This document shows, one piece after another, positions 45,602-58,300 of a stretch of DNA of 64,000 nucleotides. The translations under genes and the position numbers were made by a program. The stretch is from Hawksworthiomyces lignivorus (Eukaryota > Ascomycota > Sordariomycetes > Ophiostomatales > Ophiostomataceae), in NCBI GenBank assembly GCA_002917075.1, contig NTMA01000106.1, positions 1-64,000 of the forward strand, read 5' to 3'. Position 1 is the stretch's first letter, and every line of letters begins with the position of its first letter. Below the pieces are notes generated by a model that had not been told where the DNA came from, did no database searches, and saw only the letters and a list, made by a program, of their open reading frames with translations.

Positions 45602-46996
45602 TATGCCACCGGAGACGACGTCACAAGTTAGAATGATTGCCGAGGTATGCTGGCTAAGAAGAAAATCCTCAGCTTTTAACAAATTATTTTTTCCTTCATC
45701 TAGATATTCTAGCAAGTCATGAATAATCCACACGCACGACTGCGTAGTTGCCATAGTGTGTTTTACAGAAAATCAGACGTTTTTGGAGGGCATACGCTCT
45801 TCTCCTTGTCAAATAAGATTTTCTCTCTAAATCCACAATGGTAGTTCATTTGTTCGTGAATGTTGCCTCCAATTTGTACTCCCAAGCAGTGGCAGAAGAG
45901 GTCCTGTCTTCGCATGGGCTTGACTTGCTTAGGGGCGTCACTACAATCTACAACAGAGACTTTGAGAATTGCACAAATGGCTCATTTACTAATTAAAATA
46001 ATGGAACCTATTAATAGAAGCTCTTGTCCTAGGGATGAGCTTTATTGAGTTTCTGCATTACCACCAGCAAGAGCCAACCTCCAGCTGTTACACTACGTTG
46101 CATTGCAGGCACCAAGAAGGGACTGAATCTGTTGCTCAAGCTCCCTACGGCCAAAGAAGAAACTACCAACGGAAGCTGTAGACCATCAAATGTCAAGGCG
46201 GATGTACCACACACTCTTTTTCGCTTTGCTACATCCTCTACAATCTTCCTATCCACGTGAAAGACAAGAAGAATATCAGTAGCTCTATACAAGTTTATTG
46301 TACGACTTACATTTAGTCATGATGTCACCATGTATGTTTCTTCTCTATTTTTACTGCCTCTTTTTATCTATCTGAATAAACAGTTTTCTGTATGCGATGA
46401 CAGGGCAATGCTCTGGACTTCTAGTGGCAACATTGTACTTACAAACACTCTACGTTGGAAAAACGTAGCATTCTTCTAGAGAGGCATTTTTGACTTGCTC
46501 TGTAGCGATAGATAAATACATCTACTTTTGGCAATGCTTTTACGCCCGACGCCGTCCCAATGTGGAAAGTTTCTAACGCAGCTAGGGAAAAAAGTACGCA
46601 CCTACACAATGTCCTTACGTGTCGAGATACTGTCGGGCGTAAAATAGGCTCTTCTCCTACGCTGAATTATGGCAGCATCGTGAGATTTTGGCGTCGATTT
46701 GTCATCTGGACTCGGCCTAATCTCATTCTTTCGAATATCGCTTATTCAAAAGCACAATCGGCCCGTGCCGGATTGGCCTTTCAAGTCCAGCCTTGCTGTG
46801 ACGAATGCATACAAGACCTGGCGTGCTCGCATATAAAATGTAAAGACGAGACACGATTCGTGAGTCGATTATCCAAAGAGCTTCATTGCTGTTTTGGTTC
46901 TTTTGTTGTCTATGCTCTGATTCATACTAGAAATTATTGGTTTGCTTGGTAGCGTTAGGACTTTTTCTAATGTTTTAGAGGATCCTGTGCTTTGCA
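45602..46996. other. Intergenic 1.4 kb, AT-rich
   Basis: No supported gene. An open frame at 46560-46952 contains a Cys-rich patch (CCDECIQDLACSHIKC) but lacks coding character and is not joined convincingly to the HET gene. Confidence 0.45.
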
Positions 46997-48793
46997 ATGG
47001 AATCAACGAGCTCTGAAGATATCCTTGTGCGTTTCGAAATTGGCCGCCCTACTTTTGGCTATGGAGACACTAATACTTCGGTGATGAAACAGGATCCTGT
47101 CGGGGGTGTCGACCGGACACCGGACGCTAAGATTAGCAAAGCGGCGTCACACGCTAGGTATTGTACAACAAGGCACGGCGCGGCTTGTCAGTTGCCTCCC
47201 ACGGTGCCACCGCCGACGAGACTCGTCGATATCGAACAGCAGGGGGATAGCGAGATTCGGCTCATAGAAACCGCGCAGCAAACGCCTAGCGACAGCAAAT
47301 ACATTGCGCTAAGCCACTGCTGGGGCAACCTGCCGCAGCTTCACGATACGAAGACGACGCAGGACAAGCTGGCCGACTACACGCGCAATATATCCATAGC
47401 GACGCTCCCACAAACGTTTAAAGATGCCATCCGCATCACCCGCGGACTCGGCGTCCGCTACCTGTGGATAGATTCCCTCTGCATCATACAGGGAGACGAA
47501 GCCGACTGGGAGAGGGAGTCTTCGATGATGAACAGCGTGTATTCGAATGCCTACTGCACCATCGCCGCCACCGCTTCCGCGGACGGGAGCGGCGGCTTGT
47601 TTGTGCCGCGGTCCGCTGATCCCATCCCGGACGGTCACGAAGCACCTCAGCCGAGGTCGGACGTGCCGGATAACGTGACGCTGCCAGCGCCGCCGCCCAT
47701 CTGGAAGAAGCTCGTCGAGTCGGGTCCACTTGGCAAGCGCGCGTGGGCCTACCAAGAGCGCCAGATGTCCCCCCGCGTCTTGCATTTTACAAGCCACGGG
47801 ATGGTGTGGGAGTGCTGCACCTGCCTCGCAAGCGAGGACAAGCCCGGGCTAGGGCTGCAGCCGATCGTCGCACCTAGTGATGTTTATGTTGAAAAGGCCT
47901 TTGACCTGGGCATAGGCCAGAGCCTTCTCAGGATGTCCGATCCGATCGACCTGAAGTACGAGCTTGGCGGTCGGACCGAGCTCCAAATTCTGTACGACCG
48001 CTGGCTCGACGTGATGGAAAACTACAGCCAGCGGGCGCTTACTAGGGCTTCAGACCGATTTCCAGCTCTGTCCGGCCTTGCAAAGGACTTTGCGCAGAAG
48101 ACGGGCGATGTCTACCTGGCCGGTTTGTGGCAGGGTGACCTGCATCGCCAGCTGCTTTGGATGAGGTCATACTTTGGCGCCGCGCCCGTCGAGGTCTTGC
48201 ATTGGGAGCGACCGTCCGTGTACCGAGCGCCGTCGTGGTCATATATGGCAATCGATGGGCCAGTCAGCACGAAGCTAGAGATTCGAAACAGCAGACTGAC
48301 ACAGCTCCCGAACAAATCACAGCTGCAGATTCTCAGCGCGACGAACATCCCGGCCGGGCAGGATCCTCACGGTGCTCTGTCCACCGCCAGGTTGCACGTG
48401 TCTGGCCTCCTCAAAACTGCCTTCCTGTCTGGGCCTGCGAAGAACAAACACTATCGGTACCTGGATATCTATATTCGCAGTGGCAATGTAGTGACCGTTC
48501 GTAACATAGGACGAATTTGCTTGGACATTCCTGAGGAGGCTGGGTCATTGGACTTTTTGCATGTGACCTGTCTCAGCGTCATCGACTATGGCGTGGTCGA
48601 CCCTCGGTTGCTTGGGTTTGGCCGAGTCCTCGGCGCATATGGTTTGCCTTTGCCTGTCACTGCTATGAATGCTGGACTGGCACTTGTTCCGGTGGATTGG
48701 AAGCGGCAGATATACAGACGCATCGGTGTAATGGAGTGGCATGACGATGACTTGTTTGATGGAGTCAATCCGGCCTCCATCACGATTGTGTAG
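46997..48793 (+). CDS. HET-domain (heterokaryon incompatibility) protein
   Basis: One exon, 598 aa. The HET domain spans about residues 98-205: KYIALSHCWG (block 1), TLPQTFKDAIRITRGLGVRYLWIDSLCI (block 2) and NAYCTIAATASADGSGGLF (block 3). HET proteins trigger cell death after fusion of incompatible strains; the HET domain is thought to be the death-inducing part. RAWAYQERQMSPRVLHFTSH follows, also typical. The C-terminal 250 residues are variable with no repeats. The N-terminus is shorter than in many HET proteins, so an upstream exon may be missing. It is on the same strand as, and 1.4 kb downstream of, the NACHT gene. Confidence 0.88.
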   Translation: MESTSSEDILVRFEIGRPTFGYGDTNTSVMKQDPVGGVDRTPDAKISKAASHARYCTTRHGAACQLPPTVPPPTRLVDIEQQGDSEIRLIETAQQTPSDSKYIALSHCWGNLPQLHDTKTTQDKLADYTRNISIATLPQTFKDAIRITRGLGVRYLWIDSLCIIQGDEADWERESSMMNSVYSNAYCTIAATASADGSGGLFVPRSADPIPDGHEAPQPRSDVPDNVTLPAPPPIWKKLVESGPLGKRAWAYQERQMSPRVLHFTSHGMVWECCTCLASEDKPGLGLQPIVAPSDVYVEKAFDLGIGQSLLRMSDPIDLKYELGGRTELQILYDRWLDVMENYSQRALTRASDRFPALSGLAKDFAQKTGDVYLAGLWQGDLHRQLLWMRSYFGAAPVEVLHWERPSVYRAPSWSYMAIDGPVSTKLEIRNSRLTQLPNKSQLQILSATNIPAGQDPHGALSTARLHVSGLLKTAFLSGPAKNKHYRYLDIYIRSGNVVTVRNIGRICLDIPEEAGSLDFLHVTCLSVIDYGVVDPRLLGFGRVLGAYGLPLPVTAMNAGLALVPVDWKRQIYRRIGVMEWHDDDLFDGVNPASITIV

Positions 48794-49175: not shown

Positions 49176-50509
49176 TTAAGCCGCAAACCGCACTATGTCC
49201 ACAGAGCCGGAGAAGTGTCCAAAAGCAAAACTGGTGCCGTGAGATGCGATGCAAAAGGCTCTATAGTCTGGCGGGAGCCAGAGCACGTTTTCTCCATTAC
49301 GGGTTACCCATTCATTACCGACAAAATAATAAGAACCATTGTAAGGCGACATCTTGATTTCCGGATCAAGCCTCAACGTGCCACGATTTGTTTTGAGAAA
49401 TCGAGTATCGGCAGTGAATGCTAGCTCGGCAATACTGCAGTCAGTACTGAGAGTCTGCTTTAGCTCGCCTGTTGCTGTGTCCAAGAGCTGGACCGTCTTA
49501 TCATCTGAGGCCAATGCTAATAACTTGCTATCGTGCGAGAACGCTAGAGCTGTCTGCCTTATACGGTCAAATAGGTATAGTGGAAAGTTCATCGCGTCAC
49601 TGCAATTCCCTATTGTCTGCTGAAGCTTGTGATGCTAATGCTATCGTCTTAGCGTCGGATGAGAGTGCAACAGCCAGGCCGGCGAGTTTGTGCTGCAGCT
49701 CTCCCGTCATTATATCCCAGAGAAAAACATCATAGGCCATTGATACTGACGCTACTGCTTTATTGTCGGGCGAGAATGCTGCAGCCACAATCCAGTCACT
49801 ATGGCCTCTTAATATCCGTTGTAGATCGCCCGTTGCCATGTTCCAGAGCAAGATACTCTTATCATATGATGCTGACGCTAAAATTTTGCTGTCAGACGAG
49901 AATGCGAATCCGGTAATATCAGCACGATGGCCCTTTAGCGTCTGCTGTATGTCTCCTGTCGCCGTATTCCAGAGTTTCACATCCTTGCGATATGCCGAAG
50001 CTACTATCTTGCCGTCAGCTGAGAATGTCACAGCATTGAACAAGTTGTCATGGCGGTTATTTAACCTTAGTTGCAACTTGCCAGCTTCTGTGTCTCGCCT
50101 TTCTATATCCCAGAGTCGAATAGTTTCGTCACTTGACGCTGACGCTACTATTCTGTTACTAGGCGAGGAAGCTATAGAGGTGATCCCACCGCTATGGCTT
50201 GTGAGTATTTGCTGTAGTCTTCCTGTTGCGGTATCCCAGAGTTGGATAGTCTTGTCGTATGACGCTGATAATACAGATTTATTGTCAGGAGAGAATATAA
50301 TGGCGCTGATTGCGCCATAATGGCCTGTAACTGTCTCTTGGGGCTTGTCAGTTTTCATATCCTGGAGAATATATCTTTCGTGATTTGATGTTGACACTAT
50401 TATCTTCCTTGCTATGGAGGTGGTCCTGCCGCTGCGGCCTGCGAGTGTAGCTGGCCCGTCGCCCTGTCCCAAAACCCGACAAACTTGTCATACTGCGAAA
50501 CTATTGCCT

Positions 50510-51060
50510 TGCCGTCAGGCGAGAATATCACAGTGTAGGCCAAGATACCATTTCTATCTTCTATTTTGCGTTGTAACTCGCCTGTTGCTGTGTCCGGGAG
50601 CCAGATGCTTTGGTCATAAGAGGCTGATGCTAGCGTCTTGCCATCAGGCGAGAATGCCACAGCATTGACTGGATTGCTATGGCCCTTCAGTGTGCGCTGT
50701 TGCTTGCAGGTGGCCGGATCCCAGAGCCGGACGGTCTTGTCAGAGGAGGCTGACGCCAGTGTCTTGCCATCGGGAGAGAATGCCACGGCATTAACTCTGT
50801 CTCTATGGCCCTCTAGTGTTTGCTGTAGCTCGCCAGTAGCTGGGTTCCAGAGTGGAATGGTCTTGTCACTTGCAGCTGACGCTAATGTCTTGCCGTCAGG
50901 CGAGAATGTCACAGCTTCGACGCCATTTCTGTGGCCATATAGCGTCTGCTGTTGCTCGCCAGTGGTCGGGTCCCAGAGCTGGATGATTTTGTCCAAGGAG
51001 GCTGATGCTAGTGTCCTGCCGTCAGGCGAGAATGCCACAGCGTTGACGGTGTTACTATGG
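50510..51060 (-). repeat. 126-bp tandem repeats encoding 42-aa WD40 units
   Basis: The string CTTGCC(A/G)TC.GG.GAGAATG recurs at 50637, 50763, 50889 and 51015, exactly 126 bp apart. It encodes AVAFSPDGKTLASASSDKT-type blades. Units farther along (49600-50450) are more diverged and of less regular spacing. Confidence 0.9.
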
Positions 51061-52114
51061 CCTTCTAGTGTCTGTAGACAAGCATTCCAAGTTAAACCAA
51101 CTTTTAGCGCTCATAAGACCCATTCGGGGGTAAGAATGCTTGAATGAGGCTCTAACTATGCTCCTTTCGGGTGCAAAAATTATCGCAGATTCATACAGTT
51201 GAAGGGGATACAGGTCGCCTGCCGAGCGACAATTCAGCACGAATCGATTTGCATCATACAAAAAGGTGGAAACTTCGACACCTGTACTTGGCTAGAAGCT
51301 TCTTAGCGTTTTTCAACAGGGAGGCTTTAATGGCACGTACATTGACAAGAGCTTTAAGGGTGCTAATCATAACTATACTCTGAGACAGCTTACCCAGGAA
51401 GCACAATGCTTCCAGCCAGTGAAGGAAATGCCCTTTGAGGAAGCCAAATGCTTCATGACCGTCGGCAATGGCAGTTCTGCTTTTGTTCAAGATGGTAGAC
51501 CCAATATAGGCTTGCGTATCGAATGTGTGCTGGCAGATGCATACTAATTACGTCTGGCTCAACATCTTCACGAGTCGTTCCGAGCAGTTTCAAGTTGCAA
51601 ATATCCTTCCTTAGATGACCACTAGAGGAGAGAAGTTCCAAGCACCTGGCCGCGATGTTCTTGTGCGTCACTTTTCATCGACCCAAAATAGATTGCTATT
51701 GCGCTTCTCTGGGTCAATGAGAAAATCACGAAAAGACAAGTGAAAGAGCCGTACAGGCGAGGCAGAATCAGATGGAACATGCTCGCCTCTCTTGAAGAAG
51801 AAGCTGCCGCCAAGGCATTCTTGTTTGGCAAATCCATCCGCGAGCGTATGAGAGATCGTAGACTTCCCAGTGCCAGCCATGCCATTCAGCCAGAATATGC
51901 ATTCTCCCTGTGAGTCGTCGGTCCATCTCATAACCTTCTCACGAAGGTCGATTCGGGTCTCGCGATGACACCGCGCATCATGCTCTCCATCGTGAGAATC
52001 AAAGGCTGCACCATGCGCGATCGGCAGTTTCGAGAGCACGTATGTCTTGGGTGACACTGAAACCATTAGCTTTGGATGCACCGCTGCCCAGATCGCGCTA
52101 ACTTCACCTGAGTC

Positions 52115-52183
52115 GCTGTGGATCTCATTTCGGACCGTCCCATAGTTGATCCCCACCTAAGAGCCTCGATTCTGATCTCCGAA
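52115..52183 (-). other. Putative amyloid (prion-like) motif, NLR copy
   Basis: Encodes FGDQNRGS-stop-VGINYGTVRNEI at the extreme N-terminus of the NLR pseudogene. It matches the C-terminal motif of the adjacent effector-type gene at 14 of 21 positions. The stop is TAG where the partner has a Gln codon. Confidence 0.75.
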
Positions 52184-52204
52184 AGTCACAGGCGACTGTG
52201 CCAT

Positions 52205-52520
52205 CCTCACGATCGGATGAATTTCCTTTTAAATGGCTGCGGTTCGCGTCGCCGTACAATAGTCCAGTCCGAGAATATGAGCGAGGCTTTGCACTACACG
52301 TGACTTCTACCCAACCGATCCCTCTCTTCCACACAAATCACAGGGGGGGCGTGCTGCCCAAGGCGTTTTGAAGAGGCTCTTTTGATTCATTGGTTTGTGA
52401 GCACCTCCCCCCTCTAATCTATTTCTGGCAGCTACTTATTAAATGGGTAATTCCTGAGGGATTTTCGTCTGTCAGAGATGGATGCAACAGCAAACCTACC
52501 AAAGTACTACTCTGTTCACC
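52205..52520. promoter_or_regulatory. Shared 316-bp divergent promoter of the NLR/effector pair
   Basis: Separates the ATG of the NLR pseudogene (52204, minus) from the ATG of the effector-type gene (52521, plus). Contains CACGTGA near 52288. Head-to-head spacing would allow co-regulation. Confidence 0.5.
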
Positions 52521-53369
52521 ATGGATCCCGCTAGCATCTTAGGCATAGCTAGTACCGCGCTGCACGCTGTCCATGTTGTGCTGGGCGAGGTTTAATCGAT
52601 CATAGATGCGCCAGACAATATTAAGTCACTGGCGGAAGATCTGCTCGCCGTTGAGGAAGCCCTTAAGTCCCTCGAAAGTGCTCTCCATGGCACACAGATT
52701 ATTGTGCCCGCGAGCGACCAGCTTAGAAAAACGATCGATCTATGTACCAGGTCATGCACTAAATTCAAGAGCGCTCTCAGTCGGTGGACCAAGCATAGTG
52801 AGGATGGAAAGCTCTCTGTGAGAGATCGTACAGTAGTTGGCCTTTTCAAAAAGAGCTAAGTAAAGTCCATGTCCGAACAACTGTAGAGTTACAAACTAAA
52901 TATCACTATGGTTGTCAGTATCGTAACTATGTAAGCTATGCCTCACCCTCTTTAGGCGACTGTAGGAAAATACTTACAAGAGACTAGGCAGAGCTCTCTG
53001 ACGCAAGGAGACAGATCTGAAGAGATAACGACGAAGATCTCCACTACAGGAAACGAGATTAAGGAAGCAATCCAAACGGCAGACAAAAGGTTGGCTGAGA
53101 CAAAGAGCGCACTAGATACGCTTGATAACGCAGAAATCGACCAAGGCGAGACGGTGGAAGATCAAGACAGTGCAATTGGCCAGATTAGAGTCGAGAAGTC
53201 TGCCCTAGAAACATCAGGCGAATTGCTTAAAGAACTCCTCTGGGCTGTCCGAGCCGCAACTGCGAACGCTCACACTGGTCAAAACGTGAACATTCACTTT
53301 GGAGATCAGAACAGGGGCTCCCAAGTTGGGATGAACTCGGGGACAATCACCAATACTTTCAATAATTGA
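52521..53369 (+). pseudogene. HeLo-like-type effector gene with C-terminal amyloid-like motif, interrupted by stops
   Basis: One continuous frame of 282 codons starts MDPASILGIASTALHAVHVV. It contains LAEDLLAVEEALKSLESALH, SCTKFKSALSRWTKHSEDGK, VVGLFKKS, KSMSEQL, YKLNITMVVSI, then a coiled-coil part (EITTKISTTGNEIKEAIQTA, EKSALETSGELLKELLW). This is the fungal N-terminal (HeLo-like, PF17111-type) family. It ends with FGDQNRGSQVGMNSGTITNT. In-frame stops lie at 52593 (TAA), 52857 (TAA), 52884 (TAG), 52932 (TAA) and 52953 (TAG); none is TGA, and no frameshift is needed. An intron at 52860-52955 could remove three stops, but the sequence inside it matches the family, so I read it as coding. Members act as cell-death effectors or signal carriers for a partner NLR. 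As it stands the gene cannot make the full protein. Confidence 0.75.
53298..53366 (+). other. Putative amyloid (prion-like) motif, effector copy
   Basis: Encodes FGDQNRGSQVGMNSGTITNT plus a short FNN tail at the C-terminus. It is Gly/Asn/Gln/Ser/Thr-rich, nearly uncharged, and follows a coiled coil, as in fungal prion-forming signalling domains. The intact-frame copy supports its reading. Confidence 0.75.
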
Positions 53370-55392: not shown

Positions 55393-58300
55393 ATGGCTCC
55401 CATCGCGATTTCGCCGGAGCGCGATGCCGTGGGCAGCCTGACGACGACATTTGACGACACGCTCCGATTCTACCTCAACGGTACGCGGGTTGTTCTCGAT
55501 GAGATCGACCCGGAGGTGACGCTGCTAGAGTACCTGCGGGGCATTGGCCTGACAGGGACAAAACTGTAAGTGTGTGGTCTTGTTGTCCGGCAGCGGTGGG
55601 AGCCGAGTCTAATTTTTGGGGGGGACGCAAACATGCTAACGGTTTCTCACCTCTCTCCAGAGGCTGTGGTGAGGGCGGCTGCGGCGCTTGCACGGTGGTC
55701 GTGAGCCAGTATAACCCGACGACAAAGCAGATCTATCATGCCAGCGTCAACGCGTGCCTGGCGCCGCTGGTCAGCGTCGACGGCAAGCACGTCATCACCA
55801 TCGAGGGCATCGGCAACGTGAAGCAGCCGCACCCGGCGCAGGAGCGCGTGGCCCAGGGCAATGGCAGCCAGTGCGGGTTCTGCACGCCGGGCATCGTGAT
55901 GAGCCTGTACGCGCTGCTGCGGAACAAGGAGGCTCCGACGGAGCACGACATCGAGGAGGCCTTTGACGGCAACCTGTGCCGGTGCACCGGGTACCGGTCG
56001 ATCCTGGACGCGGCGCAGACATTCCGGGCGATCGACGCCGGCAACGGGTGCGCCAAGTCCAAGGCGAACGGCGGCAGCGGGTGCTGCATGGACGGGGCGG
56101 ACGGAGCGGGCGGCGGGGGCGGCTGCTGCAAAGACAAGCAGGCCGACGGCGTCGTCGACCAGCCCATCAAGCGGTTCACGCCGCCGGGGTTTATCGAGTA
56201 CAACCCGGACACGGAGCTGATCTTCCCGCCGGCGCTGAAGCGGCACGAGTACCGGCCGCTGTCGTTTGGCAACAAGCGCAAGCGGTGGTACCGGCCGGTA
56301 ACGGTGGAGCAGCTGCTGGAGATCAAGAGCGCGTTCCCGCAGGCCAAGATCATCGGCGGCAGCTCGGAGACGCAGATCGAGATCAAGTTCAAGGCGCTGA
56401 GCTACCCGGTGTCGGTGTATGTGGGCGACATTGTGGACCTGCGGCAGTACGCGTTCCACGACGACCACGTGGAGGTGGGCGGCAACGTGACGCTGACGGA
56501 CCTGGAGCACCTGGCGGAGCGGGCGGCGCAGCACTACGGGCCGGCGCAGGGCCAGGTGTTTGCGGCCATCAACAAGCAGCTCAAGTTCTTCGCGGGGCGG
56601 CAGATCCGCAACGTCGGCACGCCGGCGGGCAACCTGGTGACGGCGTCGCCCATCTCGGACCTGAATCCGGTGCTGATGGCGGCCGAGGCGGTGGTGGTGG
56701 CCAAGGCGCGGGACGCGACGAGCCCGGCGGGGCCGGCAACGGCGGCCATCGACATCCCCATGTCCGGGTTCTTCCAGGGCTACCGGCGCACGGCGCTGCC
56801 GGCGGACGCGGTGCTGGCAGCGATCCGCATCCCGCTGACGCACGCGACGGGCGAGTACTTTAGGGCGTACAAGCAGGCCAAGCGCAAGGACGACGACATT
56901 GCCATTGTGACGGCGGCGATGCGGGTGCGGCTGGACGCGGACGGCGTGGTGGCGCAGTGCAACCTGGTGTACGGCGGCATGGCGCCGACGACGGCGGCGG
57001 CCAAGACGGCCAACGCGTTCCTGGTGGGGCGGCGGCTGGCGGAGCTGGAGACGCTCGAGGGCGCCATGAACGCGCTGGAGCGCGACTTCAACCTGCCCTT
57101 CTCGGTGCCGGGCGGCATGGCGTCGTACCGGCGGGCGCTGGCGCTCAGCCTGTTCTACCGGTTCTACCACGAGGTGATGGCGGAGCTGGGCGGCGCGGAG
57201 GGCGAAGAGGGCGAAAAAGCAGCCTCGGCAGCAGTGGTGGACCGCGCGGCCGTCGCGGAGCTCGACCGCGACATCTCGACGGGCGAGACGGACAACGACG
57301 CGGCGGTGGACTACGCGCAGGAGATCGTGGGCAAGGCCAACCCGCACGTGGCGGCGCTCAAGCAGACGACGGGCGAGGCGCAGTACACGGACGACATCCC
57401 GCCGCTCAAGAACGAGCTGCACGGCTGCCTGGTGCTGTCCAAGAAGGCGCACGCGCGCATCCTGGCGGTGGACTACGCGCCGGCGCTGGACGTGCCGGGC
57501 GTGGTCGAGGTCGTCGACCGGCGCAACATGCCCAGCGACGCGGCCAACCACTGGGGCGCGCCCAACTTTGACGAGGTCTTCTTCGCCGAGGACGAGGTGC
57601 ACACGGTGGGGCAGCCCATCGCCATGGTGCTGGCGACGACGGCGGCGCGCGCGGCCGAGGGCGCGCGCCTGGTCAGGGTCGACTACGAGGAGCTGCCGGC
57701 CATCTTCACGATGGAGGAGGCCATCGAGCAGGAGAGCTTCTTCGATTTCCACCGGGAGATCCTGAACGGCGAAGACGTGGACGCCGTCTTCCCCAAGTGC
57801 GACTACGTGTTCACGGGCACGACGCGCATGGGCGGCCAGGAGCACTTTTACCTGGAGACGAACGCGGCGCTGGCGGTGCCCAAGCCGGAGGACGGCGAGA
57901 TCGAGATCTTCTCGAGCACGCAGAACCCGAACGAAGCGTAAGTGGCAACCCCCCCCCCCCCCCCCCCCCCCCCCCCAAAAAAAAAGCGGAACAACCTTTA
58001 TGAAATATTGCAGCTAACACTGTTTTTCCTCCTTCTCTAGGCAGGTCTTTGCGGCGCGCGTGTGCGGCGTGCAGGCCAACAAGGTGGTGGTGCGGGTCAA
58101 GCGGCTGGGCGGCGGGTTCGGCGGCAAGGAGACGCGGTCGATCCAGCTGGCGTCGATCGTGGCGCTGGCGGCCAAGACGACGCGGCGGCCGGTGCGGTGC
58201 ATGCTGACGCGGGAGGAGGACATTCTGACGTCGGGCCAGCGGCACCCGTTCCTGAGCAAGTGGAAGGTCGGGGTGAACCGCGACGGCAAGCTGCAGGCGC

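Follow-up and report, generated by a model that had tools for sequence, protein, structure and literature searches.

A head-to-head NLR and HeLo-like gene pair of Hawksworthiomyces lignivorus as a very probable relic of a PP-type amyloid signalosome

Introduction

The closest described counterpart of the locus reported here is the PNT1/HELLP system of Podospora anserina, in which, as described in PMC7885112, two adjacent genes encode a receptor with the PP amyloid signalling motif at its N-terminus and a HeLo-like effector with the same motif at its C-terminus. The first 31 residues of PNT1 have been reported to form a prion and to activate HELLP; the PNT1 gene is described with an intron after 94 coding bases, in phase 1, and the HELLP gene with one intron, at nucleotides 429–475. 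The PP receptors whose domains are described in the sources used here, PNT1 and two Arthroderma STAND proteins, combine NB-ARC and TPR. In the system described for Chaetomium globosum, CgPNT1/CgHELLP/CgSBP, the PP motif is again common to receptor and HeLo-like effector. A second system of P. anserina, NWD2/HET-S, is described with a NACHT-WD40 receptor and a divergent neighbouring effector, but it uses the HET-s class of motif and an effector of the HeLo, not the HeLo-like, family.

The PP motif, named in 2012 (PMC3321046), is defined by the core NxGxQxGxN, and most PP motifs start at positions 5–9 of the NLR (PMC9815663); the Pfam family Ses_B serves as the PP set in PMC8086366. The family PF17111, whose current Pfam name is PigL_N, is called HeLo-like in PMC9815663.

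We analysed a window of 64,000 nucleotides from H. lignivorus, part of contig C9 of a 43.7 Mb genome in 191 contigs, whose HET, NACHT-WD40 and HeLo-like genes are the gene content of a filamentous fungus. An earlier note, made from the letters of the window, had proposed that an NLR pseudogene and an effector-type gene share here an amyloid-type motif, as known signalosomes do.

Results and Discussion

Layout of the locus and the shared motif

Two relics lie head to head in the window, an NLR on the minus strand with its start codon at 52204 and a HeLo-like effector on the plus strand with its start codon at 52521; the distance of 316 bp given in the earlier note was confirmed, as was the orientation. 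The features are collected in Table 1. Read from 52204, the NLR gives MAQSPVTFGDQNRGS, then an in-frame stop, then VGINYGTVRNEI; the effector, read from 52521, begins MDPASILGIAS and finishes with NIHFGDQNRGSQVGMNSGTITNTFNN and a stop codon at 53369.

Table 1. Features of the NLR/HeLo-like locus (positions in the window).
Feature	Position	Strand	Evidence or remark
WD40 repeats over two alternating frames	49176..51110	-	WD40 196 and 146.9 bits, 2 of 3 open pieces
Linker between NACHT and WD40, broken frames	51151..51667	-	tblastn pieces of L027 residues 682-850
P-loop-containing start of NACHT/NPHP3-type domain, fused to the last part of the NACHT region	51671..52156	-	NPHP3_N 39.6 bits, tblastn
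N-terminal end of the NLR: PP motif (52183-52121) interrupted by an in-frame TAG; start codon at 52204	52121..52204	-	translation, Ses_B, PP profile
Intergenic stretch separating the divergent start codons	52205..52520	.	316 bp
HeLo-like effector relic, 282 codons, five in-frame stops	52521..53366	+	PF17111 56.0 bits (X at stops)
Last open effector frame, 137 aa, motif at end	52956..53369	+	ORF; sole methionine inside motif
C-terminal PP motif FGDQNRGSQVGMNSGTITNTF, unbroken	53298..53360	+	Ses_B, PP profile 37.7 bits, core search

The motif common to the two proteins spans 21 residues, 14 of which are identical when the stop of the NLR is scored as a mismatch; the shared string FGDQNRGS.VG.N.GT, on which the earlier note was built, was confirmed. 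Both termini are short and rich in G and N, which might favour a chance or compositional likeness of two G/N/Q-rich ends. When the N-terminal 57 residues of the NLR, its stop written as X, were compared with the last 60 of the effector, the best ungapped BLOSUM62 score was 79, a value reached by none of 5000 shuffles, the maximum of which was 46. Moreover, among 939 stop-to-stop frames of at least 40 aa in the window, the first 35 residues of the NLR scored 99 against their own frame, 79 against the effector frame and 38 against the next one. In the whole genome, a degenerate DNA pattern for FGDQNRG had two sites, which are the NLR and the effector copies, and the reversed control had none. 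The core N.G.Q[V/I]G.N, a pattern that misses the NLR copy, for its stop, and both variant copies of a second pair on contig C163, was found twice in 43.7 Mb, in the window effector and on contig C90, with no site in the reversed control; the C90 site was taken as chance, being devoid of the F-G flank and antisense to a frame of 422 aa. With these figures, with shuffled peptides scoring at most 12.8 bits against the PP profile presented below, and with divergent adjacent genes that belong to the expected families, we regard a fortuitous likeness as exceedingly improbable.

The DNAs encoding the two motifs match at 43 of 63 bases and at 10 of 21 third codon positions, and 6 of the 14 common residues are written with different codons. 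The two copies do not come from a recent DNA duplication; since their DNAs have diverged in this way, it is the protein sequence that has kept the likeness, as would be expected of motifs that needed to match each other. The C. globosum system is described as comprising three genes, one of them for a lipase; by contrast, a six-frame scan of the window with the PP profile, in search of such a third gene, gave the two known copies only, the next score being 6.1 bits.

Class of the motif

By its sequence, the shared motif is assigned to the published PP (pseudo-palindrome) class, on the core pattern and on a profile of our own, with the scores for Pfam Ses_B lying below its cut-off. The core of the effector copy, N-R-G-S-Q-V-G-M-N, fits NxGxQxGxN exactly, and the NLR copy fits it except for the stop at the central position; the NLR motif begins at residue 8, near the published range of 5–9. 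Ses_B was the only Pfam family reported for the NLR fragment at E-values up to 10 (14.6 bits) and was among the weak Pfam matches of the effector (15.4 bits, and 19.3 bits in the genome search); overall, the window copies scored from 12.7 to 19.3 bits, all under the curated cut-off of 23.2. At E-values up to 10 no sigma or HET-s family of Pfam was found on either copy, and in searches of the genome the sigma family PF17106 had 8 matches, all on contigs other than that of the window, and the HET-s family PF11558 had matches on C117, C107 and C137 only.

The earlier note had left room for a distinct or little-described variant. In favour of a distinct, unnamed amyloid signalling motif are the sub-threshold Ses_B scores of both copies and the form FGDQN-GSQVG, which is rarer than FGPGN-GxQVGQNYG in the PP set used; the PP consensus given in the 2012 paper (QLxG; PMC3321046) is also slightly different from the QVG of the window motifs. 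To this the database motifs provide the answer. A PP profile was built from 43 distinct 21-mers of database NLRs, excluding the window motifs, drawn from the relatives of the receptor on C163, of which 1393 were found and 120 are listed, 48 of these with a PP core within the first 130 residues. Against this profile the window effector scored 37.7 bits and the window NLR, with X at the stop, 28.1 bits, and the receptor and effector copies of the C163 pair 29.7 and 12.9 bits; the best shuffle of any of these four peptides gave 12.8 bits (500 shuffles per peptide, 434 to 469 of them with a score, the rest without). With the stop left unbridged, the NLR motif yielded 12.8 and 5.2 bits for its two parts.

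Among the relatives listed, the closest motif is that of P0208, from Trichoderma barbatum according to its source, with 16 of 21 residues identical to the effector copy and 14 of 21 to the NLR copy; P0208 begins MAQ, as the window NLR does. Three Podospora NLRs (P0160, P0178 and P0210) are equally close to the effector motif, each at 16 of 21, and the motif region of P0160 starts MSDSYRFG, identical to what the PNT1 primer given in PMC7885112 encodes. The GSQVG form is therefore present in NB-ARC-TPR NLRs of the database, including Podospora proteins and one that matches the PNT1 start. An unnamed class is thus very unlikely, and the variant suggested in the earlier note gives way to the named PP motif, in a form close to the tested motif of PNT1/HELLP. 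The motif is now placed in the PP/RHIM-like class.

The earlier note had staked its proposal on two observations that would speak against it, the absence of the motif from other NLRs and an equal frequency at random positions of unrelated proteins, and neither of them refuted it. At least 58 of the 120 listed relatives of the C163 receptor (of 1393) carry PP ahead of the P-loop, a count that is not independent of the profile, as the core pattern for picking its members was written after the C163 copies had been seen, and that takes in one protein, P0181, without P-loop by the pattern used. Over 158,861 residues downstream of the P-loop, taken from all 240 proteins listed as NB-ARC-TPR or as NACHT relatives, the best profile score was −2.0 bits; the background was taken there because some proteins have a genuine PP motif after residue 150.

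Two groups of the 120 listed NB-ARC-TPR relatives have a different N-terminal arrangement. Six of them (P0169, P0236, P0194, P0196, P0231 and P0238) have PP at residues 256–430, still before the P-loop, and P0169 and P0236 list PF01048 (PNP_UDP) as well; these proteins represent fusions of an effector with a receptor, or else gene models that were merged. In six others (P0164, P0191, P0214, P0223, P0235 and P0240) PP is replaced by another N-terminal motif, roughly NNxFGDNATIHQGDINNVFNY, which was matched to no named class.

The receptor relic

The NLR had been called a pseudogene in the earlier note, and so it is: the gene is dead, its motif being interrupted by a stop, its NACHT region short of about 290 residues and its frame broken at several points. 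When three HET-NACHT-WD40 frames from this genome served as tblastn queries, 288 to 295 residues of the NACHT core proved to be absent at 51778/51779, where residues 342–351 and 631–644 of these frames stand adjacent in the relic. A GT is found after 97 coding bases, a place at which no intron is required for the frame.

The receptor is what sets the window pair apart from PNT1/HELLP. PNT1 consists of NB-ARC and TPR, whereas the window NLR has NACHT (NPHP3_N, 39.6 bits) and WD40, and since its receptor is of the NACHT-WD40 type the pair is not an orthologue of PNT1/HELLP; by motif and layout, as far as the sequence can tell, it is nonetheless a PP signalosome relic. The nearest receptors in the genome are of the HET-E/HNWD type: the NACHT start of the relic aligns with the three closest own-genome HET-NACHT-WD40 copies at 56–58 percent, but their N-terminus is HET-like, as judged by eye, in place of the PP motif. 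The best NACHT relatives in databases have 70–73 percent identity, in alignments that cover some 60 percent of the region used as query. Of the 647 NACHT relatives 120 are listed, and none of these 120 had a PP motif, so that no intact homologue among them supports PP on a receptor of this type, a result that counts against the relic reading; several of the same 120 list PF17111 or RelA/SpoT (PF04607) domains. A PP motif on a NACHT-WD40 receptor and the joint decay of both partners are each mildly unusual.

Downstream of the NLR relic, at 46979–48793, lies a single-exon, apparently intact HET-domain gene, with a stop-to-stop frame of 604 aa (PF06985, 113.3 bits), so that the window holds a further gene of the incompatibility type. 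On the other side of the locus, a C run followed by an A run occupies 57950–57985, between coding pieces of a xanthine-dehydrogenase-like gene; judged by eye, these runs are probably inside an intron.

The effector relic

In addition to what the earlier note had seen, the effector is broken as well. When read through its stops it matches PF17111 over residues 4–191 with 56.0 bits, against a cut-off of 27.2, and a piece of 87 aa alone gives 33.9 bits. The proposal of an amyloid-type pair, with the motif at the NLR N-terminus and at the C-terminus of a HeLo-like effector as in known signalosomes, is hence borne out by the motifs, the layout and this PF17111 match. The 282 codons of the relic, a probable intron included, compare with the 271 aa given for HELLP in PMC7885112.

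In-frame stops stand at codons 25, 113, 122, 138 and 145. At least five other PF17111 genes of the genome are split at profile positions 138–147, as an intron would cause, and the stops at codons 138 and 145 fall about at this place, as judged from the coordinates; the stretch with these last two stops would end at nucleotide 435, to be compared with the 429–475 of the HELLP intron. All splice sites were judged by eye, without transcripts. Introns as an explanation of all five stops were rejected, codons 25, 113 and 122 being away from the intron place of the sister genes. Because these three stops are left unexplained by an intron, the killing domain of the effector is regarded as broken.

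A search with the effector read-through gave no database relatives at an E-value of 0.001, among 1126 candidates. An AlphaFold2 model of the same read-through (17 NLR rows) had a pLDDT of 61.9 and a pTM of 0.42, and Foldseek gave this low-confidence model no significant PDB match, the best E-value being 0.088; with no database relatives and a poor fold prediction, it is the Pfam profile that carries the HeLo-like assignment.

Repeat-induced point mutation (RIP), marked by a positive composite index, was considered as the cause of decay and rejected: the index is −0.29 for the effector, −0.76 for the NLR and −0.55 for the whole window, with no RIP signature.

A second PP pair on contig C163

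A second head-to-head pair (L003/L024) was found on contig C163, at L024:5750-9623 (108749–112622 of the contig). Its receptor, on the minus strand, has an exon encoding MESAGMFFGPENQGFEVGNNFGSIRNEF, which matches Ses_B with 21.4 to 22.1 bits, under the cut-off; a probable 5' splice site follows, and then a frame of 819 aa with NB-ARC (35.3 bits) and TPR_10 (127.2 bits). The probable intron comes after 97 coding bases, in phase 1, close to what is described for PNT1. The effector, on the plus strand, starts with MDQAKVTAILTS and finishes with VYFAAQSNGVQIGTNYGNISGWTVGAPQKK; the predicted start codons are 448 bp apart, and PF17111 gives 22.4 bits, below the cut-off. The effector motif is weak, with 12.9 and 8.9 bits against the PP profile, and no Pfam family matched it at E-values up to 1; as the profile score is weak and Pfam gave nothing, its reading as PP relies on its position and on the core SNGVQIGTN. 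The frames read have no stop, and from its sequence the pair looks like an intact PNT1/HELLP-type system. The presence of this pair speaks for the reading of the window locus as a PP signalosome relic, and its weak effector motif and low PF17111 score speak against it.

The C163 pair and the window pair thus have in common the head-to-head layout, PP on both proteins and a HeLo-like effector (below the cut-off on C163), but they differ in the receptor, NB-ARC-TPR on C163, and in the likeness of their own two motifs, identical at 6 of 21 positions on C163 versus 14 of 21 in the window. Across the pairs the identity is 7 to 11 of 21. PP matches above 6 bits in HeLo-like loci were restricted to C9 and C163, among 30 of the 32 PF17111 matches, with 1.5 kb taken on each side.

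Origin and fate of the locus

With its two motifs, of PP class by sequence, their positions, the orientation and protein families of both genes and the lesions that they have accumulated, the locus belongs, in decayed form, to a kind of signalosome already described, and is very probably what is left of a PP-type NLR signalosome akin to PNT1/HELLP. That the motifs fold as amyloid, that one templates the other and that the cell is killed would follow by analogy with the tested systems of P. anserina and C. globosum. The ancestor could have been a NACHT receptor sensing through WD40 repeats, with a PP amyloid motif at its N-terminus; a ligand on the repeats would have led to receptor oligomerisation, the clustered PP motifs would have stacked into an amyloid seed, and this seed would have converted the matching C-terminal PP motif of the HeLo-like protein encoded by the divergent neighbour; the helical bundle of that protein might then have attacked the plasma membrane, causing cell death. 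The templating invoked in the earlier note would fit such an ancestor, but not the locus as assembled, where both genes are relics: the receptor motif has a stop, the NACHT core is lost and the killing domain of the effector contains stops, so that the system is dead in this assembly. In this, too, it differs from PNT1 and HELLP, which are intact and have been tested.

The state of the two partners leaves some room for a null haplotype: the system would still be segregating in the species, inactive in this strain but intact in others. Both partners are broken, yet the effector motif is unbroken and the layout of the pair is kept; moreover, inactive NLR haplotypes have a published precedent in NWD2/HET-S, in which nwd2 was inactivated by a transposon in all the het-s isolates of P. 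anserina analysed (PMC3321046). On the other hand, the large NACHT loss, the several frame breaks and the three effector stops have the look of old decay and not of a single recent event, and we consider this reading possible but rather doubtful. In a more elaborate and unlikely version, a PP N-terminus would have been grafted onto a HET-E-like NACHT-WD40 receptor and both partners lost jointly in a silenced haplotype, with intact haplotypes segregating as an allorecognition or immune polymorphism and with possible cross-talk with the C163 pair.

The stop-free frame at 52956–53366, with its unbroken motif, could also be seen in the light of the second PP system of the genome as a het-s-like exaptation, in which expression of the 137-aa C-terminal frame, free of the killing domain, would supply a prion or else a decoy or sponge for the C163 pair. 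However, the sole methionine of this frame is inside the motif, three unexplained stops stand upstream, and the effector motif has just 11 and 8 of 21 residues in common with the two C163 copies, so that we give this alternative very little credit.

Under the preferred reading, that of a PP signalosome relic, the shared motif can still be recognised after both genes of such a pair have decayed, which allows relic loci to be found by motif. If intact haplotypes exist, the locus could be used to study cross-activation between two PP systems of one fungus, and to learn whether such pairs usually end with the joint loss of receptor and executioner.

Other amyloid motif genes in the genome

PP, sigma and HET-s, all three older motif classes, are present in this one genome. 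Sigma motifs (L062–L069) are on C133, C114, C118 and C110, and 6 of the 8 matches are above the cut-off. Two longer frames, lipase-like by eye, have the motif at their end (C133 and C114), and three shorter frames, which may be SesA-like, have it near the end (C114, C118 and C133); in addition, a 70-aa frame on C118 has the motif at residue 11, and C110 has two weak repeats. Of the HET-s type, a HET-S-like frame on C117 (L070) carries the motif and lies head to head with a frame bearing a motif that is similar by eye; a short frame on C107 (L071) passes from a HeLo start almost directly into the motif, a possible deletion; and on C137 (L072) a motif below the cut-off was observed at residue 87 of a long frame.
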